This document shows positions 110 through 20,290 of a stretch of DNA of 54,031 nt, piece by piece. Source of the stretch: Pseudomonadota bacterium (GTDB lineage Bacteria > Pseudomonadota > Gammaproteobacteria > Pseudomonadales > Moraxellaceae); contig JAJZUM010000002.1 in assembly GCA_021848605.1 (NCBI GenBank), forward strand, positions 1-54,031, written 5' to 3'. The translations under genes were made by a program, and so were the position numbers. The notes under the pieces were generated by a model that saw only the letters and a program-made list of their open reading frames with translations, did no database searches and was not told where the DNA came from. Each line of letters starts with the position of its first letter. The stretch's first letter is position 1.

Positions 110-142
110 TGCATCAACGCCCAAAAAGAGTGCCTTGATGCA
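110..142. promoter_or_regulatory. Inverted repeat TGCATCAA-N17-TTGATGCA, possible enhancer
   Basis: Two exact 8-bp inverted arms (110-117 and 135-142) are separated by 17 bp. They lie about 100-130 bp upstream of the sigma-54-type promoter, the usual position for enhancer-binding protein sites. The arms do not match the NtrC consensus (TGCAC-N7-GTGCA) well, so the bound protein is unknown. A hairpin role cannot be excluded. Confidence 0.3.
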
Positions 143-241: not shown

Positions 242-257
242 TGGCACATGTTTTGCT
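242..257 (+). promoter_or_regulatory. Sigma-54 (RpoN) promoter, TGGCAC-N5-TTGCT
   Basis: The element has the invariant GG (243-244) and GC (255-256) exactly 10 bases apart, with TGGCAC at -24 and TTGCT at -12. Transcription would begin near 268, giving a leader of about 47 nt before the ABC operon. Sigma-54 promoters require an enhancer-binding ATPase such as NtrC and commonly drive nitrogen-scavenging genes, which fits the genes downstream. Confidence 0.75.
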
Positions 258-314
258 AATTGTCTCCGGTATTACTTTAGTTTGAATGAGTAACACCAAA
301 CCAAGGAGTCCTCT

Positions 315-1313
315 ATGAATATCAAACAATTCAGTCGTAGCTTGAAGTCAGCTTTATCCCGACTGGCCATTCCGGCACTTGCTGTACTTGCTGTTTCCTC
401 ACATGCGGCACAGCCGCTCAAGATTGGTTATAGCGACTGGCCAGGATGGGTCGCATGGCAAGTCGCTATTGACAAGGGCTGGCTTAAGGAAGCGGGTGTC
501 AATGTTGACTTCGAATGGTTTGACTATTCGGCATCGATGGATGCGCTTTCTGCTGGAAAAATTGATGCGGACCTAATGACGAACGGAGACACTCTGGTTA
601 CGGGTGCAGCCGGTGGCAAGAGCATCATGATCATGTTGACCGACTATTCCGATGGTAACGACATGATTGTCGGAAAACCAGGCCTCAACTCCCTCAAAGA
701 TCTCAAAGGCAAAAAAGTTGCTGTCGAAGAGGGTTTGGTCGAGCACTTGCTTCTACTCGATGGCCTGAAAAAAATGGGAATGAAAGAATCTGATGTCACT
801 CTGGTCAACGCCAAGACCAATGAGATGCCACAGGTTCTGGCGTCTGGGGACATTGCTGCTGTCGGGGCTTGGCAACCGGTAGCTGGGCAAGCCATGAAGG
901 CACTCCCTGGTTCAAGACCTCTGTTCACTTCTGCACGAGAACCCGGACTGATTTATGACGTCCTTGCGGTTAATCCTGCCAGTGCTGAACAGCATCGCGC
1001 TGAATGGCTCAAGGTTTTAAAAGTATGGGATCGGGTCGTGCATTACATTAATGACCCAAAGACACAGCCTGATGCCGTACGAATCATGGCAGCCCGTGTT
1101 GGCATTTCTCCGAAAGCCTACCTTCCCCTCCTGCGTGGAACCAAGCTTCTTGATCTGAACGCCGGCAGAAAAATATTCGTCAAGGGACAGGGATTCAACT
1201 CCCTCTATGGCTCCTCGAAGGTTGCCGACGACTTCAACGTCGCCAACAACGTTTACAAGACACATCAGGATATTGACAGCTACATTGACCCTTCGTTCAT
1301 CAACAGCAAGTAA
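315..1313 (+). CDS. ABC transporter substrate-binding protein (urea carboxylase-related, SsuA/NMT1 type)
   Basis: Periplasmic binding protein of 332 residues with a Sec signal peptide (basic start, hydrophobic core at about 18-28, cleavage near SSHAA). The mature protein opens with [15 protein letters not shown], the signature of the binding proteins annotated next to bacterial urea carboxylase genes, which many now link to guanidine. NMT1/SsuA folds also bind taurine, sulfonates or thiamine precursors, so the ligand is not proven. An AGGAG ribosome site precedes the ATG. It is the first gene of an operon with permease, ATPase, creatininase-family enzyme and GlnT-type synthetase behind a sigma-54 promoter. 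The likely role is scavenging a small nitrogen compound, with guanidine or a relative as best guess because a guanidine operon lies at 13-20 kb. Confidence 0.85.
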
Positions 1314-1336
1314 CGGATCCATCGTTCTTGGATCCG
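1314..1336 (+). repeat. Intercistronic hairpin CGGATCC-N9-GGATCCG
   Basis: A perfect 7-bp inverted repeat with a 9-nt loop starts directly after the stop codon of the binding-protein gene and ends 3 nt before the GGAG ribosome site of the permease gene. No T-tract follows, so it is not a classical terminator. Such hairpins often protect the upstream message or limit downstream translation, so that binding protein is made in excess over permease. Confidence 0.5.
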
Positions 1337-1348
1337 TTTGGAGCAGAT

Positions 1349-2317
1349 ATGAGCACGTTCTTCACAAAACAGTCCGGTATCGGACGCCCTGAATCCGCTA
1401 AACGCATTGGACTTGTTCTGGGCTCATTTCTGCTTCCATTACTGATCTGGAGTCTGGTCAGTTACGTACCGTTTGTTTGGCATCCCAAGGTCGACATCAC
1501 GGACCCCGGCGGAGTGGATTACTTTCAGGTGGACATGCTGGTTGACAGGGCCATGTTCAACCAGGAGGTTTCCAATATGGAGCGAGAATACCAGCCTGTT
1601 CCCACTGGAATTCCAGCCAATCCGATTTATCTTCCTACTCCCGGCCAGGTTGCTCGTGCCTTGTTCAATGGGTTCGTTCACCCTCCATTAGATAGTGATA
1701 TTCCTTCGATGCCGCAAAGCTTATGGCACAGTATTCAGATCATTTTTTGGGGATTTCTGATCTCATCGCTGATCGGTGTACCACTTGGGATTATGTCAGG
1801 AACCTACGATACTGTTCGCCGACTGAATGAGCCCTTCATCGAATTTTTTCGTTATCTGCCCGCACCCGCATTTGGTGCGCTGGCTGTTGCCATTTTGGGC
1901 ATTTATGACGGACCAAAGATTGCCATTATTGTTATTGGAACCTTGTTCCAACAGATTCTGATTATAGCCAATACGACCCGAAAGCTGGATGGAACCATCA
2001 TTGAAGCGGCACGAACTCTTGGCGCCCGTAACATACAACTTCTGACCAAAGTCGTGATTCCCGGCATTCTTCCAGATTTGTACCGGGATCAGCGTATTCT
2101 GCTCGGCTGGGCCTGGACTTATTTAATTGTTGCCGAATTGATTGGCACTAGTTCCGGTATTACCTGGTTCATTACCCAACAGGCCCGCTACCAACACTTT
2201 GACAATGTCTATGCCGCCATTATCACCATTGGCCTCATCGGTTTTGGCACAGATGTCTTGCTGGCACGACTGGGTCGAAGACTATTTCCCTGGGATCGCA
2301 CTCAGGATCAGGACTAA
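1349..2317 (+). CDS. ABC transporter permease (SsuC/TauC-like)
   Basis: Inner-membrane permease of the BPD_transp_1 family (322 residues). A first membrane segment is followed by an unusually long periplasmic stretch (about residues 25-100), then the core segments. The EAA loop is visible as EAARTLGARNIQ, followed by a conserved GWAWTYLIVAEL segment typical of urea carboxylase-linked permeases. I chose the ATG at 1349 because TGGAG precedes it by 5 nt; an in-frame TTG at 1328 lies inside the upstream hairpin. It pairs with the ATPase at 2384 and the binding protein at 315 as one importer. Confidence 0.85.
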   Translation: MSTFFTKQSGIGRPESAKRIGLVLGSFLLPLLIWSLVSYVPFVWHPKVDITDPGGVDYFQVDMLVDRAMFNQEVSNMEREYQPVPTGIPANPIYLPTPGQVARALFNGFVHPPLDSDIPSMPQSLWHSIQIIFWGFLISSLIGVPLGIMSGTYDTVRRLNEPFIEFFRYLPAPAFGALAVAILGIYDGPKIAIIVIGTLFQQILIIANTTRKLDGTIIEAARTLGARNIQLLTKVVIPGILPDLYRDQRILLGWAWTYLIVAELIGTSSGITWFITQQARYQHFDNVYAAIITIGLIGFGTDVLLARLGRRLFPWDRTQDQD

Positions 2318-2383
2318 AGCACGGGATCACTTCAACCCTGATTTGATCACCCTATCCCACTTTAACTTGCCGGAGGAAGCATC

Positions 2384-3301
2384 ATGAACCATGCAACAGG
2401 GATGACTATCAGCTATCTGGACCAGTCTCCCGAAGTACAAGCACGGTTTGAGCGTATTCGCCAGCGCGATGTCATTCTGGAAGTCCGTCATCTGGGTAAA
2501 CGCTATCGCTCCAACCAAGGCGAAGTTGAAGCCTTGCGCGATATAAATTTCAGCATTCACCGACGTGAATTCGTCTGCGTGATTGGTCCATCGGGATGCG
2601 GAAAATCCACCCTCATTCGCATACTTGCTGGTCTGGACCACCATACCTCAGGTGAGGCACTGCTTGATCAACAACCCATACGGGGTCCAGGACTGGATCG
2701 TGGCATGGTGTTTCAGGGATATTCCCTGCTGCCATGGCTAACCGTCAAAAAAAATGTCATGTTTGGACCCCGTATGAAAGGCCAGGGTATTGTCGAAGCT
2801 GAACGCGATGCACTGCTCTGGCTGGAACTGGTCGGCCTGGAAAAATTTGCTGATTCCTATCCACATCAATTATCCGGAGGCATGCGTCAGCGCGTTGCCA
2901 TAGCTCGCGCCTTGGTCAATCAGCCCCGTATTCTGCTGATGGATGAGCCATTTGGCGCCCTGGATGCCCAGACCCGATCACGCATGCAGGCCCATTTGAT
3001 TGATATCTGGCGCAATATCGATGTCACGGTCCTGTTTATTACCCATGACCTTGATGAAGCCATCTATCTTGCCGATCGCATCCTGGTTCTTTCAGCTCAT
3101 CCTGGTGAAGTGCAGGAAATCATTGAAGTACCTGTACCAAGACCTCGCAGCCCAGAGCAGTTCAGCACCAGCGCGTTCCGGGCAACGAAAGCGCGTCTGG
3201 AAGCCTTGATTCACCCAGCACCGACGGTAGAAAGCGACGATGAAGGCAAAATTTATCCGCACCTGATCCGTCTGACCAATGTTCATGACAATGTGGAGTA
3301 A
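2384..3301 (+). CDS. ABC transporter ATP-binding protein (SsuB/TauB-like)
   Basis: Cytoplasmic nucleotide-binding subunit of the importer, 305 residues. It has Walker [10 protein letters not shown], the Q-loop region [13 protein letters not shown], the signature [15 protein letters not shown], Walker [13 protein letters not shown] and the switch histidine in FITHDLDEA. About 45 residues extend past the usual nitrate/sulfonate-type ATPase core. A strong GGAGG lies 7 nt before the ATG. The creatininase-family gene follows after 3 nt, so the operon is tightly coupled here. Confidence 0.9.
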
Positions 3302-3304
3302 GCC

Positions 3305-4084
3305 ATGAAATGGTCTGATCTTGCCTGGTCTGAAATTCCAGATGTACTTGCTCATTGTGGTCAGGCTGCCCTTTTACCGGTTGGAGCCACCGAACAACAT
3401 GGCCCTCACCTAGGTACAGGTGTTGACTTCATCATCGCCGAGCAACTCTGTTTCAAAGTAGCCGAGCAAACGGGCGTTCCCGTTCTGCCTGTGGTGCCCT
3501 ACGGTTGCTCCATCGGCCATAGTCAGCGCTGGCCAGGCACTCTAGGCCTCCAACCTGTTACGCTCATCCAAATGATCAAGGAAATTGGAGATTGGGCATG
3601 GCATAGCCATATACGCCGACTTTTTATCATCAATGCCCACGTTACCAATGCGGCCCCTTTGCGATGCGCACTTGAAATGCTACGTGCCGAGCATGATGGC
3701 TTTATGGTTACGGTGCTGAACACGGCAACCCTCAGTGAACGTGTTCGTACCTTCCATGCTCAAGACGCCGTGGACTGGCATGCCAATGATGCCGAAACCT
3801 CACTGATGATGCATATTGCACCGCAGGCTGTCCGCCCTGAATTATGCATTCATGCCGATGACCCTGACCGTACTACCCACTGTGTCTTTGCCCACCCAGT
3901 CAACCGAACCAGTCTGAATGGAGTCACGGGCTACCCAAGCCAGGCTTCGGCTACCAAAGGCGCTGAGTGGTTCGACTGGATGGTCCAGGATCTTGCTCAA
4001 CTCGTACAAAGAGGTATCTCTGAACATCCCCCCTTAAACAACCCCTATCATACCTTGCCGGAAGGAAACCATCATGAACACTGA
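3305..4084 (+). CDS. Creatininase-family amidohydrolase
   Basis: 259-residue member of the creatininase/MftE family, metal-dependent enzymes that open cyclic or linear amide bonds. The metal-site motif [14 protein letters not shown] (residues about 29-43) and the late [11 protein letters not shown] element are clear. The family's usual NGHGGN is replaced by NAHVTN, which keeps the histidine. Because it sits between an importer and a glutamine-synthetase-like ligase, it probably hydrolyses the imported compound or a derivative to release an amine or ammonia. Creatinine is one possibility, but the family is too diverse to name the substrate. The stop codon lies 11 nt inside the next gene, implying translational coupling. 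Confidence 0.75.
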
Positions 4085-5435
4085 ATCATCCACCCTCGAT
4101 CTGCAGCAAAAATTTTCAAGTCAAGGTATCAAATACTGCATTGGAGCCTACGTAGACATTCATGGCATACCTAAAGCCAAGGTTGTACCGATAAGCCATT
4201 TGGGTCAGATGGCCAAGGGATCCGAGCGCTATACGGGATACGCTCTGGACGGACTCGGGCAGGCACCCAACGATGATGAATTGACATCCGTGCCTGACCT
4301 TGATCGAGCCATTCAGTTGCCATGGGAACCCAAAATTGCCTGGATTCCTGCTGACAACCACTTCAAGGGACAACCGTACGCACTGAATACTCGTGTTGCC
4401 CTGAAAAACCAACTCGCTGAAGCCGCCAAACTCGGCTACGGCATGAACCTTGGCATTGAGTGTGAAATCTTCCTGCTCAAACAACAGGAAGATGGACAAC
4501 TTGGCATCCCAGATCCTGAAGACCTGTTGCACAAGCCTTGCTATGACGTACGTAGTTTTGTGAACAATTTCAGCTGGCTTGACAAGATGGCAACCGCCAT
4601 CGACAGCCTGGGATGGGACCTTTATTCCTTCGATCACGAGGATGCCAATGGGCAGTTTGAGTTCGATTTCCAGTACGCTGATGCGTTGACAACCTGTGAT
4701 CGTTTAACTTTTTTTCGATTTATGGCCAAGCACTATGCCCGAGAGGAAGGACTGCTTGCCACCATGATGCCCAAACCATTTGCCAACAGAACCGGCAATG
4801 GCGCCCACTTCAACATGTCCCTTTATGATCGGGAAACGGGAAAAAATCTTTTCGCCTGCCATCCCTCTGAGGATCCTAATGGCTTTGGTCTCACCGAACT
4901 CGGCTACCATTTCGTTGCTGGCATTCTCAAGCATGGTCGAGCCCTGTGCGCTGTCTTTGCACCCACCGTCAATAGCTACAAACGCCTCGTTCGTCGTGGC
5001 GCCATGAGCTACTTTTCCTGGGCTCCCGTCTTCAACTCATATGGCTCAAACAACCGGACCAATTCGGTACGTATCCCAGCCGGTGGTGGACGCTGCGAAT
5101 CCCGTAATGCCGATGGTGCAGTCAATCCTTATCTGGCTGCAACACTGGTTCTGGCAGCCGGTCTTGATGGGATCAAGGAAGGACTTCATCCCGGCAAACC
5201 CAATGAAGATAATCTCTACGAGATCAGTGAACAAGAACGGACAGAGCGCGGCATCCAGTTCCTGCCGCAGACACTTCAGGAAGCAATTGCCGCCTTTGCC
5301 GCTGATCCTCTGGTTGAAAAAACTTTGGGGCGTGAACTGCGCGATGAGTTCATTCGCTATAAAACGATGGAATGGGAAGCCTACCATTTATCCGTATCTA
5401 AATGGGAGATTGACCGTTATTCCTATATGTTTTAG
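4074..5435 (+). CDS. glnT: Glutamine synthetase family protein, GlnT/GmaS-like
   Basis: 453-residue ATP-dependent ligase that joins ammonia or an amine to the gamma-carboxyl of glutamate. Opening motifs ([15 protein letters not shown]), the [14 protein letters not shown] block, the metal/substrate motif NGAHFNMSL and the late [16 protein letters not shown] block match the GlnT/gamma-glutamylmethylamide synthetase branch rather than housekeeping GlnA. It overlaps the creatininase gene by 11 nt. The product could be glutamine or an N-substituted gamma-glutamylamide; the sequence does not decide. In this operon it would capture nitrogen released from the imported substrate. The symbol is by family resemblance. 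Confidence 0.8.
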
Positions 5436-5533
5436 TGTTTCATGCGAAAGGATAAAGGATCGGACTGGCTGGGTTGTGCTCAATGCATTACCCAGCCAGC
5501 ACACAGCAGATATTCAGGACACCAGCAGAACCC

Positions 5534-5980
5534 ATGTCAAAGCCAGTCAGCCGAATCAGCATTTCACTCCCACCCGATCTGCTTGACGAACTCGATCATA
5601 TGGTTTCCCATCGCGGCTATGGCAGCCGCTCCCACGCCATCACGGAGATGATTCACTATCAATTGGCTGAACACAGCCGCGCCATGGGCAATGAGGTCAT
5701 GGCAGGCACCCTCACTCTGCTTTACAACCGAGCCAAACGTGGACTGCAAGGTAAACTGGCCGACCTGCAATACCAATATGTCGCCGAAGTGATCAGTTCA
5801 CTGCATGTCCACTTGACCGAAGATCATATGCTGGAAGTACTGTTGGTACAGGGACCCGCCAACCAACTACAATCCATCGCGCATCAAATGATCTCACTCA
5901 GCGGCGTGATTACGGGGCATTTACAACTGTTGCGTGCCGCCATTCCCCCCCTGCACAATCCTGACGAACCGATTCCCTGA
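5534..5980 (+). CDS. NikR-like ribbon-helix-helix regulator with altered metal site
   Basis: 148-residue protein with an N-terminal ribbon-helix-helix DNA-binding domain (ISISLPPDLLDELD, then GYGSRSHAI) and a C-terminal ACT-like NikR domain. Aligned by eye with E. coli NikR, the ligands His87 and His89 are kept in SLHVH, but His76 aligns with Tyr and Cys95 with Met. High-affinity square-planar nickel binding is therefore doubtful. I took the ATG at 5534 because RHH proteins start just before the first strand; in-frame TTG 5474 and ATG 5483 would add an unconserved tail. It lies 98 nt after glnT on the same strand and may control this operon, perhaps responding to another metal or ligand. Confidence 0.75.
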   Translation: MSKPVSRISISLPPDLLDELDHMVSHRGYGSRSHAITEMIHYQLAEHSRAMGNEVMAGTLTLLYNRAKRGLQGKLADLQYQYVAEVISSLHVHLTEDHMLEVLLVQGPANQLQSIAHQMISLSGVITGHLQLLRAAIPPLHNPDEPIP

Positions 5981-6104: not shown

Positions 6105-7295
6105 CTAAAAAACATCCCCAGGTATACGCACCCACCCTTCCATCAGTACACGCGCACTACGACTCATGATCGCTTTCGTTACCTTCCATTCCCCATTGAC
6201 CTCAGCAGCCTCAGCACCGACACGCAGTGTACCTGAGGGGTGTCCAAAACGCACCGAACTCCGTTCACCTCCCCCTGCTGCCAAATTGACCAGTGTCCCC
6301 GGAATGGCTGCAGCTGTGCCAATAGCCACTGCTGCCGTACCCATCATGGCATGGTGCAATTTGCCCATGGACAAGGCCCTGACCAACACATCAATATCGC
6401 TAGCCAGCACCTTCTGCCCACTGGATGCCACAAAATCTGAAGGTGGTGCTACAAAAGCCACTTTAGGGGTATGTTGACGTCGAGCGGCCTCATCGAGATG
6501 CTTGATCAGACCCATGCGCAAGGCTGCATGCGCCCGTATGGTCTCAAACATGACCAGTGCTTTGGGGTCGCTGTTGATGTCATCCTGCAGTTCTGTTCCG
6601 GTATAACCAATGGCCTCAGCATGAACAAAAACCGTGGGTATACCCGCATTGATCATTGTCGCCTTAAGTGTACCTATTCCCGGGACTTCCAGATCATCAA
6701 CTCGATGGCCTGTCGGAAACATGGCTCCGCCGCCACCCTCTTCATCCGCAGCAGGATCCATGAACTCCAGAATGACTTCCGCCGCAGGAAATGTCACACC
6801 ATCCAGTTCAAAATCACCTGTTTCCTGAACCTGCCCTTGCACCATCGGCACATGAGCGATAATGGTTTTACCAATATTGGCCTGCCAGATCCGGATGGTC
6901 GCCGTACCATCGTGGGGAATACGATGAGCATCAATCAGGCCTTTGCTGATAGCAAAGGGGCCTACGGCCGCAGAAAGGTTGCCACAGTTTCCACTACAGT
7001 CCACAAAGGCCTTATCAATGGCAACCTGACCAAACAGATAATCAACATCATGATCCGGCCGGTTACTGCGGGCGACAATTACCGTTTTGCTGGTACTGGA
7101 GGTCGCTCCTCCCATGCCGTCTATTTGCTTGCCATAAATGTCCGGACTACCGATGACGCGCAGTAACACAGCGTCTCGCGCCGGCCCTGGGTCTTGTGCG
7201 GTCTGAGGTAGATCATTAAGACAAAAGAATACGCCTTTACTGGTGCCTCCACGCATATAGGTGGCAGGAATCCGGATTTGGGGTGCATGTACCAT
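6105..7295 (-). CDS. prpF: PrpF, aconitate isomerase-like protein of the AcnD methylcitrate pathway
   Basis: 396-residue member of the PrpF/DUF453 family (diaminopimelate epimerase fold), recognised by the start IRIPATYMRGGTSKGVFF and the GNCGNLSAAVGPFA motif with its cysteine. PrpF is needed with AcnD to replace PrpD: AcnD makes the trans isomer of 2-methylaconitate and PrpF isomerises it to the form that aconitase uses. It is the last gene of the prp operon, 23 nt after acnD with a GGAGG-like ribosome site between. No convincing terminator follows; the only nearby hairpin (6008-6022) lacks a T-tract. Confidence 0.93.
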   Translation of the reverse strand: MVHAPQIRIPATYMRGGTSKGVFFCLNDLPQTAQDPGPARDAVLLRVIGSPDIYGKQIDGMGGATSSTSKTVIVARSNRPDHDVDYLFGQVAIDKAFVDCSGNCGNLSAAVGPFAISKGLIDAHRIPHDGTATIRIWQANIGKTIIAHVPMVQGQVQETGDFELDGVTFPAAEVILEFMDPAADEEGGGGAMFPTGHRVDDLEVPGIGTLKATMINAGIPTVFVHAEAIGYTGTELQDDINSDPKALVMFETIRAHAALRMGLIKHLDEAARRQHTPKVAFVAPPSDFVASSGQKVLASDIDVLVRALSMGKLHHAMMGTAAVAIGTAAAIPGTLVNLAAGGGERSSVRFGHPSGTLRVGAEAAEVNGEWKVTKAIMSRSARVLMEGWVRIPGDVF

Positions 7296-7318
7296 CAGTA
7301 TCCTCCAGGTTATTACAC

Positions 7319-9913
7319 TCAGGCTACGCTGGCCGACTCAAGAAAATCCTTAGCAAAGCGTTGTAAAACGCCCCCAGCTTCATAAATCGATACTTCTTCA
7401 GCCGTATCCAGCCTACAGGTAACAGGCAGCTCAACAAGTTTGCCATGACGACGATGTATGACCAGGGTCAGAGTTGCCCGAGGCGTTCTGGCACCAACCA
7501 CATCGAAGGTTTCCGAGCCGTCGAGCCCAAGAGTCCTGCGATTCGTTCCTGCCAAAAACTCCAAGGGTAGGACCCCCATGCCGATCAGGTTCGTGCGATG
7601 TATGCGCTCAAAACCTTCAGCCACAATAGCTTCGACGCCGGCCAGACGTACGCCTTTGGCGGCCCAGTCTCGAGAAGATCCCTGACCATAATCAGCGCCT
7701 GCAATAATGATCAGCGGTTGCTTGCGCTCCATATACGTTTCAATCGCTTCCCACATACGGGTGATATGACCCTCTGGCTCGATACGAGCCAGCGAGCCCT
7801 GAATGACCTGGCCCGATGCATCCAGCACCATCTCGTTGAGGAGCTTGGGATTGGCAAAAGTGGCCCGCTGCGCCGTTAAGTGATCACCACGATGGGTTGC
7901 ATAGGAATTATAATCTTCTTCTGGCAAACCCATCATAGCCAGATACTCACCTGCCGCTGAATCAGCCAGGATGGCGTTAGAAGGGGACAAATGATCCGTG
8001 GTGATATTATCACCCAGTATAGCAAGAGGACGCATACCTTTCAGGGTACGTTCTCCCGCCAATGCACCCTCCCAATAAGGAGGTCGACGTATATAGGTAC
8101 TTTGCGGCCGCCACGAATATAGAGGACTTACTGATTGCACTGTACTATCCCTATGTTCAAACATGGGAATGTAGACCTGCTTGAACTGATCCGGCTTTAC
8201 TGCAGCCTGGACCACCGCATCAATCTCTTCATCACTGGGCCAGATATCTTTCAGACGAATGTCCTGACCCTCGAAGTGCCCCAGTACATCCTTCTCAATA
8301 TCAAAGCGCACAGTACCGGCAATGGCATAGGCTACGACCAGAGGCGGGGAAGCCAGGAATGCCTGTTTGGCATAAGGATGGATCCGGCCATCAAAGTTTC
8401 GGTTACCGGACAATACCGCCGTCGTGTAAAGATTTCGCTCGATAATTTCTTGCTGAATCGCAGGATTCAGTGCCCCCGACATACCGTTACAGGTCGTGCA
8501 GGCAAAGGCAACAATACCAAAACCGAGTTGTTCCAACTCTGATTTCAGGCCAGCCGCTTCAAGATACAAGGCAACCGTTTTCGATCCTGGAGCCAGTGAA
8601 GTTTTTACCCAAGGTTTGCGGGTTAAACCAACACGGTTGGCATTTCTTGCAAGCAGGGCAGCAGCGATAACGTTGCGTGGATTACTGGTATTGGTACAAC
8701 TGGTAATCGCAGCAATAATCACGGCTCCATCCGGCATTTGACCCGGCACTTCTTGCCAGGGCGCAGCGATACCTCGGGTTGCCAACTCCGAAGTAGGCAG
8801 CCGCTTGTGCGGATTGGATGGTCCAGCCATATTACGTACAACGCTGGACAAATCAAATTCGAGCACGCGTTCATAATCGGCTCGCTGCAGGGTATCCGCC
8901 CATAAACCAGCTTGCTTGGCATAGATTTCCACCAAACGCACCTGCTCATCTTCACGACCTGTCAAGCGCAAATAATCCAGGGTCTGCTGATCAATGAAAA
9001 ACATCGCTGCAGTAGCACCATACTCGGGCGCCATATTAGAGATTGAGGCACGATCCCCCAGAGTCAGAGATGCTGCTCCAGGTCCATAAAACTCAAGATA
9101 AGCGCCGACCACTTTACGCTGACGCAAATACTCAGTCAGCGCCAGAACCACGTCAGTAGCCGTTATTCCAGGCTGTGGCTTACCCTGCAGCTGAACGCCG
9201 ATGATTTCAGGTAAACGCATCCATGAGGCACGACCTAACATCACATTTTCAGCTTCCAGCCCCCCAACACCAACGGCGATCACGCCCAAGGCATCTACAT
9301 GAGGCGTATGACTATCCGTACCGACCAGAGTATCGGGATACGCTACACCTTGATCAACATGAACCACCGGTGACATCCGCTCGAGATTGATCTGATGCAT
9401 GATGCCATTACCCGGAGGAATCACATCAACATTCTTAAAAGCCAGTTTGGTCCAGTTAATAAAATGAAAGCGATCTTCATTGCGTCGGTCTTCCACCGCC
9501 CGGTTCTTGGCAAAGGCATCCGGGTCATAGCCGCCACATTCTACTGCCAAAGAGTGATCAACAATCAGTTGTACCGGAACCACCGGATTAACCTGTGCCG
9601 GATCACCACCTTGTTCGGCAATAGCATCACGTAAGCCGGCCAGATCAACTAAGGCCGTCTGCCCTAAAATATCATGGCAAACAACTCGAGCTGGGAACCA
9701 GGGAAAATCGCGGTCACGACGACGATCAATGATCTGCCTGAGGCAATCACTCAAAATCTCCGGCTCACAGCGTCGAACCAGGTTCTCTGCATGGACACGG
9801 GACGTATAGGGCAAATGATCCCAGGCCCCTGCTTGCAACTCGTTAACAGCGGCACGAGCATCAAAATAATCCCATGCGGTACCTGGAAGGTTTTTGCGGA
9901 AGCGACTGTTCAT
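7319..9913 (-). CDS. acnD: AcnD, Fe/S-dependent 2-methylcitrate dehydratase
   Basis: 864-residue aconitase-superfamily enzyme, the length expected of AcnD. It shows the catalytic RNEDRFHFINWTKLAF region, the GTDSHTPHVDALGVIAVGVGG block, 4Fe-4S cluster cysteines (TSCTN and ACTTCNGMSG) and the C-terminal swivel domain with GADYGQGSSRDWAAKG. It dehydrates 2-methylcitrate in the cytoplasm. It differs from PrpD, which has no iron-sulfur cluster, and pairing with prpF confirms the AcnD type. It starts 2 nt after the prpC stop, so it is translated from the same message. Confidence 0.95.
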   Translation of the reverse strand: MNSRFRKNLPGTAWDYFDARAAVNELQAGAWDHLPYTSRVHAENLVRRCEPEILSDCLRQIIDRRRDRDFPWFPARVVCHDILGQTALVDLAGLRDAIAEQGGDPAQVNPVVPVQLIVDHSLAVECGGYDPDAFAKNRAVEDRRNEDRFHFINWTKLAFKNVDVIPPGNGIMHQINLERMSPVVHVDQGVAYPDTLVGTDSHTPHVDALGVIAVGVGGLEAENVMLGRASWMRLPEIIGVQLQGKPQPGITATDVVLALTEYLRQRKVVGAYLEFYGPGAASLTLGDRASISNMAPEYGATAAMFFIDQQTLDYLRLTGREDEQVRLVEIYAKQAGLWADTLQRADYERVLEFDLSSVVRNMAGPSNPHKRLPTSELATRGIAAPWQEVPGQMPDGAVIIAAITSCTNTSNPRNVIAAALLARNANRVGLTRKPWVKTSLAPGSKTVALYLEAAGLKSELEQLGFGIVAFACTTCNGMSGALNPAIQQEIIERNLYTTAVLSGNRNFDGRIHPYAKQAFLASPPLVVAYAIAGTVRFDIEKDVLGHFEGQDIRLKDIWPSDEEIDAVVQAAVKPDQFKQVYIPMFEHRDSTVQSVSPLYSWRPQSTYIRRPPYWEGALAGERTLKGMRPLAILGDNITTDHLSPSNAILADSAAGEYLAMMGLPEEDYNSYATHRGDHLTAQRATFANPKLLNEMVLDASGQVIQGSLARIEPEGHITRMWEAIETYMERKQPLIIIAGADYGQGSSRDWAAKGVRLAGVEAIVAEGFERIHRTNLIGMGVLPLEFLAGTNRRTLGLDGSETFDVVGARTPRATLTLVIHRRHGKLVELPVTCRLDTAEEVSIYEAGGVLQRFAKDFLESASVA

Positions 9914-9914
9914 C

Positions 9915-11069
9915 TTAGTGGCGATCCTTTAACGGAACGAATTTTTGATCCTCAGGACCGGTATAGTTGGCACTGGGACGGATGATTTTACCGTCGATGC
10001 GTTGTTCAATGACATGCGCCGACCAGCCACTGGTACGGGCAATAACGAATAACGGCGTAAACATAGCTGTAGGTACCCCCATCATGTGGTAACTGACAGC
10101 ACTGAACCAGTCCAGATTGGGAAACATTTTTTTCACTTCCCACATCACTGACTCCAGTCGCTCTGCAATATCAAACATTTTCATATTGTGCTGTTCAGCA
10201 CTGAGTTGGCGAGCGACTTCCTTGATGACCTTATTACGCGGATCACTCACGGTATACACCGGATGGCCAAAGCCAATAACGACCTCCTTGCGACTTACCC
10301 GATCACGAATATCAGCCTCAGCCTCTTCTGGATTGTTGTATCTTTTCTGGATCTCAAAGGCCACTTCATTGGCACCACCATGCTTGGGGCCACGCAAAGC
10401 TCCAATACCTCCGGCCAATGCTGAGTACATATCCGAGCCAGTACCTGCGACCACGCGGGATGTAAAGGTCGAAGCATTGAACTCATGTTCGGCATACAGG
10501 ATCAAAGAGGTATGCATCGCACGGATCCAACTCGCACAGGGCTGTTTACCATGCAGGAGATGCAGAAAATGACCACCGATGGAATCATCGTCGGTTTCAA
10601 CATCGATGCGTTTGCCGTTATGGCTGAAATGGTACCAGTAGAGCAACATGGAACCTAAGGAAGCCATCAGCTTATCGGCGATATCACGAGCCCCTGGGTG
10701 ATTATGGTCATCTTTTTCCGGAGCAAGGCATCCGAGTACAGAGACACCCGTCCGCATGACATCCATGGGATGGGCCGATGGAGGTAATTGTTCCAAAGCC
10801 ACCTTAAGCCCTGCAGGCAGACCGCGTAACGACTTGAGTTTCGCCTTGTAGGCCGTCAGTTCAGCGATTGTAGGCAATTTTCCATGCACCAGAAGGTGAG
10901 CTATCTCTTCAAACTCACACGTTGTTGCCACGTCCAGAATATCATAACCACGGTAGTGTAGATCGTTACCACTACGACCCACGGTACACAACGCCGTGTT
11001 CCCGGCCACGGTACCGGACAAGGCGACTGATTTTTTCGGCTTGGGGAGAACGTTAGGGGTCTCGCTCAT
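9915..11069 (-). CDS. prpC: PrpC, 2-methylcitrate synthase
   Basis: 384-residue citrate synthase-family enzyme condensing propionyl-CoA with oxaloacetate. The segments [14 protein letters not shown] and [10 protein letters not shown] near the start are PrpC-like, and the active-site histidines and aspartate lie in [16 protein letters not shown] and the late DWFSAVSYH region. I chose the ATG at 11069 (GAGG 9 nt upstream); a GTG at 11075 would sit only 3 nt from it. It lies between prpB and acnD in the prp operon. Activity on acetyl-CoA as well is common in this family. Confidence 0.95.
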
Positions 11070-11123
11070 ATTCACTATCCTCTGCTGGGCTAATATTGAC
11101 GGTTTGCTATCGTTGCGCTGAAT

Positions 11124-12008
11124 TTACGTGCCTTTGGAAAACAGCTGATCAATCTTGGCTTCATAGGCGTGGTAACCTAAGAACTCATACAGTTCCTGGC
11201 GCTGCTGCATGGTATTGAGAACACCTTCTTGTGTGCCATGCTGACGAATTTCCCTGAAGACATGAAGTGCAGCTTTTTGCATGGCTCGCGTTGCTGAAAG
11301 TGGGTAGAGAACCATGGCCACACCCTGTTCACCCAACTGCTGGGTCGAATAATAAGGTGTACTGCCAAACTCCGTGATGTTTGCAAGTACAGGAACACGC
11401 ACAGCGTCACAAACTTGTTTATACATAGTTAAATCGGTCATGGCTTCTGCAAAAATCGCATCGGCCCCAGCCTCCACATAAGCGCAAGCACGGTCGATAA
11501 CCCCTTGCAAACCTTCCTTCTGCAAAGCATCCGTACGTGCCATCAGTACAAAATCAGCATCTGTTTTGGCATCTACTGCGGCTTTAACCCGATCCACCAT
11601 TTCATCAACCGCAACAATTTCCTTGTTGGGGCGATGCCCACAACGCTTGAGCGCAACCTGATCTTCAAGATGTACGGCTGCAACCCCTGCCCGTATCATT
11701 TCTCGGATAGTACGAGCAATATTGAAAGCTCCCCCCCACCCAGTATCAATATCCACTAACAATGGTGTATCCACCGCCGCCGTAATACGACGGGCATCAA
11801 TGAGCACATCATCCAGTGAAGTCATACCTAAATCCGGCAACCCATAGGAATAATTAGCAACGCCTGCACCCGACATATAAATAGCGCGATATCCCACCTG
11901 AGTGGCCATCATCGCTGCGTAGGCATTTACAGTTCCCATCACCTGCAAGGGCTTTTCTTCGACCAGAGCCCGGCGGAAACGGGCACCTGCTGACAACTGA
12001 TGACTCAT
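11124..12008 (-). CDS. prpB: PrpB, 2-methylisocitrate lyase
   Basis: 294-residue member of the isocitrate lyase/PEP mutase superfamily. It cleaves 2-methylisocitrate to pyruvate and succinate, the last step of the methylcitrate cycle. The catalytic cysteine loop is visible as KRCGHRPNK, and the magnesium site as [19 protein letters not shown] chose the ATG at 12008 because GGAG precedes it by 7 nt; a GTG at 12011 is also possible. The ribosome site overlaps the end of the regulator gene, which places the regulator and the enzymes on one transcript. Confidence 0.95.
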
Positions 12009-12019
12009 CACTTCACTCC

Positions 12020-12745
12020 TCAGTTTTGACCTGGCGATACCTGCTCGGCCAGATCTGAAAAATGCTCTTCGATATTGCGACGCGCGGCACCGATATGGCG
12101 TTGCATAAGTATTTCGGCCATTTCACCATCGCCAGCCGCTATGGCTTCAATAATGTTATGATGTTCCTGGAAAGCTTTGTGCGGACGACCTTCCGTCACA
12201 GAGAATTGATAACGATACAAACGCACGCGGTGGTATAACTCCCCACACAGCATCTGCATCAGCACACCATTGCCCGAACCCTGAACGATGCGATAGTGAA
12301 AGTCAAAATCACCTTCGCTTTGAAAATAAGCACGCCCCTCCTGTAACTCGGCCTGCTGCTGGTGCATACGTAGAACTTGTCTCAGACCTTGTACTTGATC
12401 CGCGGTCATATGCCGAGCTGCCAGTCGAGCAGCCATACCCTCAAGCTCCTCACGAACCTGATAAATTTCGATCAGTTCAGTCATTGACAGAGAGATTACC
12501 CGCACCCCGACATGAGGGATACGCGTAATCAGCTTGCGCCCTTCGAGACGACGCAAAGCCTCACGCAAAGGACCTCGCGATACACCATAACGCGACGCTA
12601 AATCAGCCTCAGACATCTTACTGCCTGGCTTCATTTCACCTTTGACGATCGCATCCTGAATAGCAGAAAACACCCGATCCGCTCGGGTTATACCACCACC
12701 AGCGTCTTCAGTATCCTGTAAACCAACCACAAGCGCTTCAGACAT
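12020..12745 (-). CDS. prpQ: GntR/FadR-family regulator of the methylcitrate operon (PrpQ-like)
   Basis: 241-residue FadR-subfamily regulator. The N-terminal winged helix includes [20 protein letters not shown] and [15 protein letters not shown]; the C-terminal all-helical FCD domain (about 95-220) would bind a propionate-pathway metabolite. It is the first gene of the prp operon. Two TTGT-N4-ACAA-type palindromes flank its own promoter (12755-12766 and 12827-12838), so autorepression with release by 2-methylcitrate or a relative is likely. The symbol follows the name used for GntR-type methylcitrate regulators and is inferred from context. No good Shine-Dalgarno precedes the ATG. Confidence 0.85.
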
Positions 12746-13015: not shown

Positions 13016-13450
13016 CTAGTCGTAGACGCTGTGTGTAGCTGCTGGATTCGTTTTGGCATTCAACCAGGCGCGCCAGCCACCATACTCTGAAATATCCTGT
13101 GCATCCTGGGTTGCAATCCATTCACACAAAAATCCTTGTATCCAGTCACCTTGCTCAAGTCTGATGGTTCCTATACCAAGAGGGGCCGGAATACCCGTTA
13201 CAAAATCGCCCCAGGCATGCAGTGGCAACTGCCAGACTTCAACTTCAATTGCGACACCCTGCTGAGCGACTCGCAACAAACCCGGCCTTTGGGGTGGCCC
13301 TCCCGCCAAGGCGAAGAGTCGATACTCTGGCAGGGTTCGGGTTGACTGAACCCAGATAGCCCCTCGGTCAACCAACTCATGATTAAGAGCCAGTCCCGTC
13401 ATATGTGCACCACATACCACGATTTTTTGCATCCGCTCAATCAAATTCAT
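13016..13450 (-). CDS. Allophanate hydrolase C-terminal domain as a separate protein
   Basis: 144-residue protein matching the C-terminal domain of AtzF-type allophanate hydrolase (gamma-glutamylcyclotransferase-like fold). It has VVCGAHMTGLALNHEL at the start, PGLLRVAQQG in the middle and PAPLGIGTIRLEQGDWIQGF plus YGGWRAWL at the end. In most bacteria this domain is fused behind the amidase in one protein of about 600 residues; here the two pieces (450 + 144) sum to that length. Its ATG overlaps the amidase TGA in an ATGA junction, so it can be translated by re-initiation. In AtzF-type enzymes this domain is thought to act on the product of the amidase step. A past frameshift that made two working subunits is the simplest origin. 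Confidence 0.8.
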   Translation of the reverse strand: MNLIERMQKIVVCGAHMTGLALNHELVDRGAIWVQSTRTLPEYRLFALAGGPPQRPGLLRVAQQGVAIEVEVWQLPLHAWGDFVTGIPAPLGIGTIRLEQGDWIQGFLCEWIATQDAQDISEYGGWRAWLNAKTNPAATHSVYD

Positions 13451-14799
13451 GATTCAGAATCCTTGGTCATGCGCGCCCACTCCGATGCCCAATCGAGGAG
13501 ATCAGTATCCCGGAATGCAGGCGCAAAGAAAGTAACACCAAATGGCAGACCATCATTTTTGAATCCAGCCGGCATGGCAATTGCGGTATAATCCAGAAGA
13601 TTCATGAAATTGGTGTAATAACCCAACTCTGTATTTCTTGCCAGCGGCTCAGACTGGACCTCCTCTACCCGAAAAATACGTCCGGCGGTTGGCATCATCA
13701 TAAGATCAACCTCGGACCAGATACACTCAGCCCGGCGTTTCAATGCCTGGAGCCGATAGAGGGCACGAAACATGTCCGCAGCGGACTGTTCTCCTGCAGT
13801 AGCTACAACCTCCCGAATGACCGGAAGGATAGCCTCAGGGTGATCATGTAACAACTGCTGCATGATCAGATAGCGCTCGACGACCCATGGCCCCTGATAC
13901 AACATAGAGGCCACCTCAAAAAGACAACTGCAGTCCACCTCCTTGATCACGACCTCCGCACTGCCAAGACGGATACAGGCATGTTCATAGAGTCGAGCGT
14001 ATTCATGGTCTCCAAAAAATTGCAACTGATGCGATAGAGCCACACCGATTCGAAGTGGTTTTTGAAAAGAGGGCAACGGCGCGGGAAGGGTTCGGGCAAA
14101 GCTGTCTTGAGGATCAAAATGCACGATCCGATCAAAGACCCACCGTACATCTTCGACATTCTGGGCAAAAAGTGACACACAGTCCAGTGTTCGGCAAGCA
14201 GGTACGACACCTCGGGTAGAAATCAAACCCCGACTAGGTTTCAGTCCTACCAGATTATTGAATGCTGCCGGGATACGTCCTGAACCGGCGGTATCCGTAC
14301 CCAGACTAAAACTGACCCATTGGCTGGCAACAGATACCGCCGAACCCGAACTGGAACCACCGGCAATATAATCCGGATTAAAGAAATTGCGACAAACTCC
14401 ATACGGTGAACGCGTACCATTCAGGCCGGTAGCAAACTGATCCAGATTTGTCTTACCAATGGGAATAGCACCAAGCTTCACCAGGTGTTCCACAACCACA
14501 GCATTGCACTCTGGCCTATAGGCATAGGCAGGACAGGCCGCCGTCGTCTCCAACCCTTGCACATCAATATTGTCCTTGATCGCAAAAGGAATACCGTAAA
14601 GCGGCAACTGATCCGGCGAGGCCTTTTCCAGTTGATACGCCATAGCCATCAACTGCTCTGCAGAAAACCGACTGATCCAAACTCCTGCCCGATCCTCACG
14701 TTCCATTCGCCCTAGCAATTCATGTATCACCCTGGATGGCCTCATACCTTGGGCATATGCCCTCCTTAGGCTTTGTATGTCCATGGTTTCAGGAGGCAT
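13447..14799 (-). CDS. atzF: Allophanate hydrolase, amidase domain
   Basis: 450-residue amidase-signature enzyme hydrolysing allophanate toward ammonia and CO2. The Lys-Ser-Ser triad is complete: Lys in PFAIKDNID (about 75), Ser in [12 protein letters not shown] (about 150) and the nucleophile in [11 protein letters not shown] (about 173). I chose the ATG at 14799 (GGAG 9 nt upstream). It overlaps the carboxylase gene by 11 nt and ends before the C-terminal domain, which is encoded separately at 13016-13450. It is the last catalytic step of the guanidine/urea carboxylase pathway. The symbol is by family; the one-protein version is more usual. Confidence 0.85.
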
Positions 14800-17700
14800 G
14801 GACATCATCTCCAGACTGATCAAGAATCAATAAATCCTGACCGGGTGTAACCGCAGCACCTGGCTCGGTCATGATCCGCAGAACCAAACCGTCTGTCGGG
14901 GCATGGACCACTAATTCCATTTTCATGGACTCAATCAGCACCAGGGGGTCACCTGACTTCACACGACTTCCAGGCTCAACCAGGATTTTCCATATACTTC
15001 CAGGCACATGCGCCTTGATGCGGGATGCTCCATGGGGAAGAATATAGCTGGTATCCTCTGGGTCACTCATTTTTTCAACAAGGTGGCCATCTTGGCCAGC
15101 CAAACGCCAACGCTCACGTTCAGCATCAAAGGCCATCTGCTGGCGCTCCTTGAACAAACCGATGGCTTGTTCATGCTCTTTGAGCATGAACAGATATTCG
15201 GCAACGCAGAACTCACCCTCCTCAATTCTTAAGGTAAATCGGCCATTCAGAAAATCCCGGCGTAAGCGGAGCAGCTCCGCTTCAGAAACAGGATAAAAAC
15301 GAATCTGGTCAAAAAAACGCAATAACCAGGGTTTACCCGCCTCAAAATCAGCGGTTGTACGATAGCGGTTCCACATCTGTACCGTACGCCCGACAAACTG
15401 ATAACCCCCAGGGCCTTCCATGCCGTAAACACACATATAGGCACCACCAATACCCACAGCATTTTCTGGAGTCCAAGTCCGGGCTGGGTTGTATTTGGTG
15501 GTAACCAGCCGATGGCGGGGATCGACCGGAGTTGCCACAGGCGCCCCCAGATAAACATCACCAAGACCCATGACCAGATAACGTGCGTCAAAAACAATAC
15601 GTCTGACTTCATCAATTGAATCCAGACCATTGATTCGCCTTATGAACTCAATGTTGCTCGGACACCAAGGTGCGTCCGATCGCACGGATTTCATGTATTT
15701 GTCGATGGCTATTCGCGTTGCAGAGTCATCCCAGGATAGTGGTAACCAGACAGTTCGCGTCGGGACGCAGATCGACTCGGCCTGAGGCAAGACTGCTTCT
15801 GCCGCCACCAAAATCTCAAGAAGTTGTTCTCGAGACAAAATCCGGCTATCAAAATGTATCTGTAAAGAGCGTATCCCTGGGGTCAGGTCAAGGATACCCT
15901 CAATATTGGCCTGACCTATCCATTCCATCAAAACATGGACTCTCATTCTCAGCACAAGATCAAGAACCAGAGGACCATATTCCACCAAGAGATAGCGATC
16001 ACCCGCTTGCCGGTACACTACAGCCGGATTCTCGCCCTGCGCCGCTAAAGTTTTAAGCACCGGAGATGTTGGGGCCAACGATTCGGGCAAAGGAAGATCC
16101 ATGAGACGATCCAGGGAATCTATGGCTTCATCCTGCTGCCTTTCCCGATCATAGGCCGTTTGTGGATCTAAATTTACAAATCGAAGGGTATCACCTGGGC
16201 GCAATTGTCCAAGCTTCCACAACTCGGCATGTACCACCACTGCAGGGCAAACAAACCCGCCAAGACTGGGACCATCAGGACCCAAAATTACCGGCATGTC
16301 ACCTGTAAAATCAACGGCACCAATGGCATAAGCATTATCGTGGATATTTGAGGGGTGCAACCCTGCCTCACCGCCATCGGTTCGTGCCCATACTGGTTTC
16401 GGTCCAATCAAACGAACTCCGGTACGACTGGAGTTGTAATGCACCTTCCAGTCTGTTTTGAAAAATAGGTCGATGTCCCCTTCGGTAAAGAAATCCGGGG
16501 ACCCATGAGGGCCATAGAGCACACCTATTTCCCAATGGTTGACATATCGAGGACGTAACGGTTCGGCCAATCGCCGGTGTTCATGCTGATGCATTTCATG
16601 AATATGCAAAACATCCCCAAGACGTAAGGCACGACCAGCATGGCCACCAAATTGCCCAAGGGTGAAGGTTGACGCACTCCCAAGGTACTCAGGAACCTCT
16701 ATGCCACCCGCCAAGGCCACATAGGTCCTTGACCCATGCTCCTGTATGGAAGCCAGTTTAAGAACACTGCCCGCCGGCACCTTCAGGGATTGCCACATAG
16801 GTACCGGAACTGCGTCAAGAGTCGCCTCAATAGCCGCTCCGGTAATCGCGATCACCGTTGATACATGAAAGCGTAGAGTTGGCCCCACCATGGTACATTC
16901 CAAGCCGGCATGCCGATCACGATTACCGACCAGACGATTGGCAATCCGAAATGCTAATGTGTCCATCGGGCCGGACGGTGGAACGCCCACATTCCATAAA
17001 TGCAAGCGACCAGGATAATCCTGAATGGTGGTATGCACACCCCCATCAAGCACCTCGATGGTAGCTGGGCTATAATGAAAATCGCCCAGAAAACGGATTG
17101 TTTGCTTCCCGGCGACAAATACGCTGCTGGCCACAATTTGACGTAGATAATCAAGGTTCGTCTCGATTCCCGACAGTCGGGTTTGATTCAGCGCCACCTC
17201 TAGACGCTGCAGAGCCTGCTCTCGGGTTGGCGCATGAATAATCAGCTTGGCCAGCATGGGATCGTAATAGGGCGTTACCTCGGAACCCGTTACTACCGCA
17301 GTCTCAACCCGAACATGATCGGGAAATACAACCTCAGTCAACATGCCACTGGAAGGTTGAAAATCTTTGGCCGGATCTTCGGCATACAGCCGGACTTGCA
17401 GGGAAGCGCCTGAAAGTTTGGGTGAAAGGGAATGCAATTCAGGCAAATCTCCGCATGCGAGACGTACCATCCATTCAACCAGATCAACGCCCGAAACTTC
17501 TTCCGTCACCCCATGCTCTACCTGCAGACGGGTATTAACCTCGAGAAAATAAAATTGACCCGTCACCGAGTCGAGCACAAACTCCACAGTACCGGCTGAA
17601 CGATATGCAACAGCTTCCATGAGTCGGATCGCAGTGTTCTGCAACGCCATTCGCTGTGCATCATCAAGCCCAGGGGCCGGAGTTTCTTCAATAACTTTCT

Positions 17701-18403
17701 GATTGCGCCGCTGCACCGAACAGTCACGCTCCCCCAGGGCCAGAACTGTTCCTCTGCCATCTCCAAAAACTTGCACCTCAACATGTCGTGCTTCCTGGAC
17801 GAATTTCTCCAAATAAAGTCCGGATTCCTTGAAATTGGCACAAGCCAGTCGTTCAACGGACCGATACGCTTCAGGAAGATCCTCTTCGCGCCAAATCAGC
17901 CGCATTCCTATACCACCACCGCCCGCAGTACTTTTGAGCATAACCGGATAGCCAATAGAACGAGCCACTTCAATAGCTTCATCACTGCTTGATAAGAGGT
18001 TGCTGCCCTCCAGCAAGGGAACTTGATATTCCTTTGCCAGCGCTCGGGCGGTGTGTTTCAGACCAAAAGCCCGCATTTGCTCGGGCGTTGGACCAATAAA
18101 AACAACGCCGGCCATCTCGCAGGCCTCAGCAAAATCCGGGTGTTCCGAAAGAAATCCATAGCCCGGATGAATAGCCTCAGCACCTGTCTCCAACGCAGCA
18201 GCCAGTATTTTTTCAGCACACAAATAACTTTCTGCCGCAGATGCCGGTCCAATACACACCGCCTCGTCAGCAAGTTCAACGTGACGCGCATCCGTATCCG
18301 CTTCTGAATAAACCGCCACCGATACAATACCCAGGCGTCGCAATGTCCTGATGATCCGGCAGGCAATGGCACCACGATTGGCAATCAGTACTTTTTTAAA
18401 CAT
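14789..18403 (-). CDS. Urea/guanidine carboxylase (biotin-dependent)
   Basis: 1204-residue multidomain enzyme. Domains in order: biotin carboxylase (1 to about 450, with GGGGIGMRL), carboxyltransferase halves of the allophanate hydrolase subunit 2 and subunit 1 types (about 470-790 and 800-1010), a linker, and a biotinyl domain whose ESMKME motif places biotin on Lys1161. Such enzymes were called urea carboxylase. Those encoded with DUF1989 genes behind a guanidine-I riboswitch are known to prefer guanidine, giving carboxyguanidine. An Asp in the active-site region GAVDFTGD may mark the guanidine form, by memory of published work and to be checked. It follows two DUF1989 genes and precedes allophanate hydrolase. 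AAGAGG precedes the ATG just after a hairpin. Confidence 0.92.
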
Positions 18404-18414
18404 CCAAACCTCTT

Positions 18415-18432
18415 GGGCAGGTCGTCCTGCCC
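18415..18432 (-). repeat. Intercistronic hairpin 2 (GGGCAGG stem)
   Basis: A 7-bp GC-rich stem with a 4-nt ACGA loop on the message, ending only a few nt before the AAGAGG ribosome site of the carboxylase gene. There is no T-tract. It could tune initiation on the 3.6-kb carboxylase gene or protect the upstream message. Confidence 0.5.
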
Positions 18433-18447
18433 GGTTTAAAGTTAGTA

Positions 18448-18461
18448 GCGGGCCGTCCCGC
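18448..18461 (-). repeat. Intercistronic hairpin 1 (GCGGG stem)
   Basis: A 5-bp GC stem with a 4-nt ACGG loop, just after the stop codon of the second DUF1989 gene. It forms a tandem pair with the hairpin at 18415-18432; both have ACG-type loops. It may be a 3'-end protector for the deiminase message. Confidence 0.45.
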
Positions 18462-18469
18462 CTTCGCTT

Positions 18470-19141: not shown

Positions 19142-19151
19142 AGGAGCCTCC

Positions 19152-20125: not shown

Positions 20126-20240
20126 AAGTCGTTCAGTCTCCCGGGCTTTTATCCCTCCGTGTAACCTCCGGTCAGAAGGTCGGCCACTCTCGGACCAGAC
20201 GTTCTCATCAGAGAACCGGAACCCTAGTGACCTCTTCTTT
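20126..20240 (-). ncRNA. Guanidine-I riboswitch (ykkC class, subtype 1)
   Basis: On the minus strand the conserved blocks occur in order with family spacing: CTAGGGTTCCG (at about 20217-20227), TGGTCCGAGAG (20187-20197), ACACGG then GGGATAAAAGCCCGGGAGA (20137-20160). A GGTTCTC/GAGAAC hairpin lies after the first block. Outer arms AGGTC (20229-20233) and GACTT (20126-20130) can form P1. This class binds the guanidinium ion and turns on carboxylase, deiminase or exporter genes. Its presence identifies the downstream 'urea carboxylase' operon as a guanidine operon. Identification is from the consensus in memory. Confidence 0.95.
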
Positions 20241-20274: not shown

Positions 20275-20290
20275 AGCAAATTCAATGCCA
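20275..20290 (-). promoter_or_regulatory. Sigma-54 promoter of the guanidine operon, TGGCAT-N5-TTGCT
   Basis: The minus strand reads TGGCAT, 5 nt, TTGCT, with GG and GC 10 nt apart as sigma-54 requires. Start of transcription would be near 20265, about 25 nt before the aptamer. The same architecture (TGGCA-N6-TTGCT) drives the ABC operon at 242-257. The gap 20291-20429 holds AT-rich sequence but no gene that I can see. Confidence 0.65.

Follow-up and report, generated by a model that had tools for sequence, protein, structure and literature searches.

Which compound does the gene cluster at positions 315-5980 of contig JAJZUM010000002.1 import, which pathway does it serve, and to what does its regulator respond? 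The contig comes from a bacterium of the Moraxellaceae and was analysed over 54,031 nucleotides (nt), hereafter the window. The cluster, hereafter the module, comprises a substrate-binding protein (SBP), a permease and an ATPase of an ABC importer, a creatininase-family amidohydrolase (CRE), a GmaS-like ligase (GLNT) and a NikR-like regulator (NIKR). We place a probability of about 0.72 on the reading that these six genes form the uptake-and-control arm of guanidine assimilation, in which NIKR would repress the operon, a Guanidine-I riboswitch takes over from NIKR in some lineages, and CRE and GLNT are optional. All six genes are intact and lie on a single strand. A preliminary annotation made from the letters alone (the sequence-only reading) had identified an importer, a creatininase-family enzyme, a GlnT/GmaS-like ligase and an RHH regulator, and these identities hold, as does the 11-nt overlap that it noted between CRE and GLNT (4074-4084). 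Its cluster is likewise real, with six genes rather than the five that it counted.

The module recurs with a guanidine-carboxylase operon

Loci were collected by scanning genome contigs with CRE (n = 80), to which further genome-search matches were added. A search of this kind had been proposed in the sequence-only reading, and the cluster proved to recur rather than to be absent elsewhere: the ~95 module loci span alpha-, beta- and gammaproteobacteria, including Thiobacillus, Methylotenera, Methylovorus, Gallionellaceae, Aquabacterium and Parvibaculum. The order SBP-permease-ATPase-CRE-GLNT(-NIKR) is kept nearly always where the contig reaches, and because it recurs in essentially all 80 CRE-retrieved loci, contig ends excepted, the arrangement is not due to chance.

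Inspection of the neighbourhoods reveals UAAP1, UAAP2, a 'urea' carboxylase and an allophanate hydrolase as recurrent neighbours, and module and carboxylase operon occur together in 68 of 96 loci. The importer had been described as joined not to the carboxylase; this does not hold, since the window's own carboxylase operon (13016-19892, minus strand) is about 7 kb away and the two are adjacent in most relatives. An Asp at the position equivalent to K. lactis 1330 separates guanidine from urea carboxylases (PMC11410670). The window enzyme has D698 aligned with K. lactis N1330 and the Asp of its GLGD motif aligned with D1584, and Asp occupies position 1330 in all 68 carboxylases of related module loci. 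Judged by this signature, the window's 'urea carboxylase' operon is to be read as a guanidine-carboxylase operon. It shares with the described GC/CgdAB/AtzF operons of Pseudomonas syringae, Klebsiella and Vreelandella boliviensis (PMC12186494, PMC12508155, PMC11410670) the Asp-signature carboxylase, UAAP1/2, allophanate hydrolase, Guanidine-I and -II riboswitches and an ABC importer. The present system differs from these in that the SBP belongs to another subfamily, CRE and GLNT are added, and a NikR-like protein with its operator replaces the riboswitch at the importer arm.

The importer is predicted to carry guanidine

A carboxylase is present in 35 of 36 module genomes, in three of them broken or fragmented at contig ends, and the canonical guanidine importer (TIGR03427) accompanies the module in only 3 of the 36. 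Because of these two counts together, the module appears to be the importer arm of guanidine assimilation, and because of the second its importer appears to stand in place of the canonical one. The SBP itself falls below every NCBIfam cut-off, scoring 132.8 bits with TIGR03427, the model of the canonical guanidine SBP, against a cut-off of 333.9. Overall identity between the module SBP and two canonical-type guanidine SBPs is 23-24%; Trp45, Trp48, Asp84, Asp92, Asp110, Asp116, Trp186 and Asp215 are nevertheless invariant across these two and 22 module SBPs, and are candidate pocket residues. An AlphaFold model of the SBP (pLDDT 90.7) resembles TauA/SsuA. Solved structures were considered as a guide to the ligand and set aside as uninformative, the best being TauA and SsuA at about 20% identity. 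We conclude that the importer probably carries guanidine, the predicted ligand of its SBP.

An operator and a riboswitch alternate behind one sigma-54 promoter

The promoter element upstream of the SBP gene (Table 1) is the only perfect sigma-54 match on either strand of the window. At no more than one mismatch, such an element precedes 62 of 70 NIKR loci and 13 of 13 loci with a Guanidine-I leader, compared with 0.3% of shuffles. NtrC-like sites at the same stringency occur in 40 of 67 NIKR loci and 12 of 13 Guanidine-I loci (1.9% of shuffles) and are enriched ~100 nt upstream. Promoter and NtrC-like sites support the earlier proposal of a nitrogen module, and guanidine probably falls within its substrate class; its portrayal as a self-contained pathway separate from the carboxylase is not supported.

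An unsupervised dyad search upstream of SBP in NIKR loci returned the palindrome GTATTAC-N14-GTAATAC, present in 67 of 70 such loci. It mostly starts 3-13 nt after the -12 element and covers the expected transcription start. The predicted mode of control is repression rather than activation. The operator usually occurs once per genome, at the module, and the window's genome likewise has a single site at one mismatch. Within the window alone that match is not significant (0.8 expected at three mismatches), so the operator call rests on conservation across loci. Genome G419 has operators ahead of both the module and UAAP1, as well as in the stretch from the carboxylase to a canonical guanidine importer; in G376 one stands ahead of UAAP1.

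NIKR and the Guanidine-I riboswitch largely exclude one another. The riboswitch occupies the module leader in 11 of 12 scorable loci without NIKR as against 1 of 70 with it (Fisher p = 1e-11, kinship ignored). On a tree of the three importer proteins at least five switches are seen, and in four of five independent pairs the riboswitch is present where NIKR is missing; the reverse never occurs.

NIKR is a NikR-family protein without the nickel site

The loss of the nickel site in the regulator, a point absent from the sequence-only reading, bears directly on what NIKR may sense. Like NikR of E. coli and Pyrococcus horikoshii, NIKR combines an RHH domain with NikR_C, and its palindromic operator has a spacer of similar length. 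The E. coli NikR operator is GTATGA-N16-TCATAC. NIKR differs from NikR in its half-site, GTATTAC, in a regulon of guanidine genes and in lacking His76 and Cys95 of the nickel site. At ligand positions 76, 87, 89 and 95 (E. coli numbering) the window protein reads Y76, H87, H89 and M95; across 74 NIKRs Cys95 is found in none and His76 in five, and some members, such as the NIKR of locus L180 (Y, N, N, T), have lost all four ligands. A class-wide sample of 369 genomes draws the same line: the eight proteins nearest NIKR lie without exception in guanidine or module loci and have broken sites, and the seven next-nearest NikRs are all His-His-His-Cys. Neighbourhoods were inspected for four of these seven, three of which lie beside cobalt/nickel-type (CbiM/CbiQ-like) transporters and one of which does not.

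We regard it as very improbable that NIKR is an ordinary nickel regulator and that the module supplies or depends on nickel. The architecture, the two NikR models that NIKR passes and the mostly retained His87 and His89 would fit such a role. Against it stand the loss of Cys95 in 74 of 74 and of His76 in 69 of 74, the NIKRs that lack His87, His89 and Cys95 all together, the typically single operator per genome at the module, and the intact-site NikRs of the same class beside metal transporters (3 of 4 loci inspected). Operators were found at guanidine and module genes, not with the control of nickel uptake that marks a NikR. By its site, then, NIKR does not appear to be a nickel regulator. It appears instead to belong to the guanidine pathway and not to CRE and GLNT, because genomes G454 and G625 carry operator, SBP, permease, ATPase, NIKR, UAAP1, UAAP2, carboxylase and allophanate hydrolase as one unit from which CRE and GLNT are both absent, and because the additional operators of G419 and G376 stand at guanidine genes.

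NIKR is therefore predicted to be a protein that senses guanidine or a metabolite of the pathway. According to a 2025 review, guanidine riboswitches are the only guanidine receptors known besides transporters and enzymes, and transcription factors that bind guanidine are left to later study (PMC12186494). This is why NIKR is of interest: it is a concrete candidate, with a 28-bp operator and a regulon that can be named. In the open-licence literature, older subscription papers being outside the search, we found no paper that connects guanidine operons with creatininase, GlnT or NikR. On balance we lean slightly towards the view that a nickel-free NikR-family repressor became a guanidine sensor and on several occasions traded places with the Guanidine-I riboswitch downstream of a shared sigma-54 promoter, which would make it the first guanidine-sensing transcription factor. 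If so, this is a natural replacement of RNA by protein at the same switch point, and the repeated exchange at one promoter offers a clear setting in which to study how protein sensors and RNA sensors come to replace one another.

A model for guanidine uptake and control

Under nitrogen limitation, sigma-54 with NtrC could fire the module promoter. NIKR, bound to its operator over the transcription start, would block that promoter, and the block would be lifted once the ACT-like NikR_C domain binds guanidine or a close pathway metabolite. The ABC importer would then bring guanidine into the cell, where the riboswitch-controlled carboxylase, carboxyguanidine deiminase and allophanate hydrolase would convert it to ammonia and CO2. 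In other lineages a Guanidine-I riboswitch after the same sigma-54 promoter would replace the missing NIKR and operator. CRE and GLNT would be optional enzymes of the regulon for a side stream.

Several observations weigh against this model. Methylobacillus arboreus (L099) is the sole module genome of the 36 in which no guanidine carboxylase was found genome-wide, and three genomes combine the module with the canonical guanidine importer; on both counts the module importer may carry something besides guanidine. His87 is kept in 68 and His89 in 66 of the 74 NIKRs; because of this persistence the NIKR ligand could be a metal bound differently, and it could equally be a pathway metabolite other than guanidine. 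The phylogenetically independent comparison of the swap contains only five events (sign test p = 0.125), and one locus, L101, holds NIKR and the riboswitch together.

Two of these cases deserve description in their own right. M. arboreus retains the whole module, including NIKR and a perfect operator. The L101 locus (6875-12150; Gallionellales) has a Guanidine-I leader and a NIKR gene with no NIKR operator before SBP, and may be an intermediate of the exchange.

CRE and GLNT are probable accessories

CRE and GLNT are variable parts of the guanidine loci. Beyond their joint absence from G454 and G625, the G504 operon has GLNT and no CRE, and in G532 both genes stand beside a different, canonical-type guanidine importer. 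Because of these arrangements, CRE and GLNT are best viewed as probable accessories of guanidine assimilation. The same arrangements count against the sequence-only reading's scheme as a self-contained core. In that scheme an amide or guanidine derivative is imported, CRE hydrolyses it, GLNT captures the amine on glutamate, the regulator senses the substrate and the neighbouring pathway only consumes released guanidine. CRE and GLNT do adjoin one another in nearly all loci, and creatininase acts on an acylguanidine bond, a chemistry that fits guanidine release; the module without carboxylase in M. arboreus and the three genomes with both importer types also speak for it. Set against these are the importers and NIKRs that accompany the guanidine pathway without CRE and GLNT, or without CRE, the pairing of CRE and GLNT with a canonical-type importer, and the modules under Guanidine-I riboswitches in several lineages. 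We judge the scheme improbable.

CRE is predicted to be a creatininase-fold amidohydrolase that is not a creatininase, because residues specific to the latter have been replaced. It shares with creatininase (PDB 1J2T, 1Q3K) and MftE the PF02633 fold and most metal ligands, and Glu34, His36, Asp45, His120 and Glu183 are kept in 96 of 96 sequences. It differs from creatininase in the metal ligand Glu122, which is Thr in 95 of 96, in the substrate residues Trp154 (a gap in 96 of 96) and Trp174 (Ala/Gly), and in Tyr121, which is replaced; it also scores under all NCBIfam cut-offs. Creatinine was rejected as a substrate on account of these losses.

GLNT was compared with glutamine synthetase and GmaS using published residue roles (PMC7948447). 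The catalytic Asp177, Glu186, Arg312 and Trp300 are conserved, and glutamine synthetase's ammonium-site Asp50 and Glu-flap Glu are replaced by Thr54 and Trp316. GmaS (PDB 7CQL, 9QUR) shares with GLNT the TIGR03105 match, the catalytic residues, the lack of Asp50 and the Trp in place of the Glu-flap Glu. GLNT differs from GmaS in pocket substitutions Q175S, N188D, A48T and H237N; it has no adjoining methylglutamate synthase genes, which are absent from most module genomes. Ser and Asp replace Gln175 and Asn188 in 95 of 95 GLNTs, and the GmaS beside mgsA has Gln and Asn.

It is doubtful that GLNT, acting as a gamma-glutamylmethylamide synthetase, captures methylamine freed from methylguanidine. 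Its closest solved relatives are glutamate-methylamine ligases, the catalytic residues are those just listed, and Vreelandella uses methylguanidine through its guanidine operon (PMC12508155). A close homologue (at least 69% identity) of a subunit of methylglutamate synthase, which would use the product, occurs in only 11 of 38 module genomes, however; the two GmaS pocket residues are replaced throughout, and CRE is left without a role. Methylamine capture was rejected as a general role of GLNT because most module genomes lack methylglutamate synthase.

A cycle through gamma-glutamyl-guanidine is possible but tentative, and would be one coherent version of the optional side stream. GLNT would join guanidine to glutamate, making a non-chaotropic acylguanidine store that CRE hydrolyses back on need. 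Acylguanidine hydrolysis is creatininase chemistry; GLNT also lacks Asp50 and the Glu flap, and its pocket changes Q175S and N188D, found in all 95 loci, would add a carboxylate and room. This proposal is opposed by G504, which has GLNT without CRE, by the fact that we know of no such metabolite, and by the occurrence of the same T/S/D/N pocket in GLNT paralogues of L169, with no visible guanidine context, and L170. The pocket residues were rejected as a guanidine signature for this last reason, and their pattern appears to mark a subfamily wider than guanidine loci. In L170 (1569-10324) the paralogue sits beside a look-alike of a trimethylamine-type flavin mono-oxygenase and a trimethylamine N-oxide demethylase-like gene, both named by eye from sequence; the guanidine module is present elsewhere in that genome.

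Returning to CRE and GLNT as accessories of the guanidine pathway, their side stream most likely concerns a guanidine with an N-substituent, or else an amine or an acylguanidine that such a compound yields. The mgdH/mgdL genes for methylguanidine in the V. boliviensis guanidine operon (PMC12508155) are similar in being extra enzymes inserted for a guanidine derivative, and differ in kind, being a 2-oxoglutarate dioxygenase and a lyase unrelated to CRE and GLNT. For annotation, the genes called 'NikR', 'creatininase' and 'type III glutamine synthetase' in module loci would be renamed as components of guanidine nitrogen assimilation or as its accessories, a correction that concerns sulfur oxidisers, iron oxidisers and methylotrophs.

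Further genes were observed in four gammaproteobacterial guanidine/NIKR loci. L107 (5584-7395), L015 (11399-13316), L193 (11780-15366) and L110 (4970-8557) encode a fatty-acid-desaturase-like membrane protein and a xylose-isomerase-like TIM barrel, to which L193 and L110 add an MBL-fold hydrolase and an EamA transporter. Some of these genes have their own NIKR operator-like sites, and they are candidates for further enzymes acting on substituted guanidines.

Features and neighbouring genes of the window

Table 1. Control elements, module genes and guanidine-carboxylase operon in the window.
Feature	Position	Strand	Remarks
Weak NtrC-like site, upstream of promoter	119-133	+	2 mismatches to GCACYNNNNNRGTGC
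Sigma-54 (-24/-12) promoter element TGGCACATGTTTTGCT	242-257	+	0 mismatches
Predicted NIKR operator GTATTAC-N14-GTAACAC	269-296	+	1 mismatch; about 11 nt past the -12 element, where transcription is expected to start
SBP of ABC importer (NitT/TauT family; NMT1/THI5-like)	315-1313	+	predicted guanidine binder
ABC permease, NitT/TauT kind	1328-2317	+	start TTG; ATG at 1349
ABC ATPase, NitT/TauT kind	2384-3301	+	intact
CRE, creatininase-family metal-dependent amidohydrolase	3305-4084	+	PF02633, 226 bits; probable accessory
GLNT, GmaS/type III glutamine synthetase-like gamma-glutamylamide ligase	4074-5435	+	TIGR03105, 667 bits (cut-off 469.6); probable accessory
NIKR, RHH_1 + NikR_C regulator, predicted operon repressor	5474-5980	+	probable start ATG 5534
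Allophanate hydrolase, two open reading frames	13016-14823	-	amidase 13447-14823; C-terminal domain 13016-13450
Guanidine carboxylase (annotated urea carboxylase)	14789-18403	-	Asp698 = K. lactis position 1330
Guanidine-II riboswitch, between UAAP2 and carboxylase	18417-18464	-	35.6 bits, custom model; no Rfam match at the gathering threshold
UAAP2, carboxyguanidine deiminase subunit	18470-19342	-	called start too long
UAAP1, carboxyguanidine deiminase subunit	19152-19892	-	
Guanidine-I riboswitch, head of guanidine-carboxylase operon	20136-20238	-	98.3 bits (threshold 63)
Sigma-54-like element of guanidine-carboxylase operon	20275-20290	-	1 mismatch

The two reading frames of the window's allophanate hydrolase overlap by a few bases, and relatives have a single protein of about 590-600 amino acids; the split reflects either fission of the gene or a frameshift in the assembly. 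The importer genes of the window are closest to those of the metagenome-assembled genome LL7.bin33 (92%), followed by Thiobacillaceae, and the other module carriers of the window's own order have CREs only about 57-62% identical to that of the window; because of this discrepancy, horizontal transfer of the window module is possible. Between the two guanidine operons lies a 2-methylcitrate (propionate) operon (6105-12745, minus strand) with prpF- and acnD-like genes, prpC, prpB and a GntR regulator. Between the guanidine-carboxylase operon and ssb, an open reading frame at 21723-22250 (minus strand) begins with the P-loop IIAGPNGAGKTTFAREFLP and resembles zeta-toxin-like kinases.

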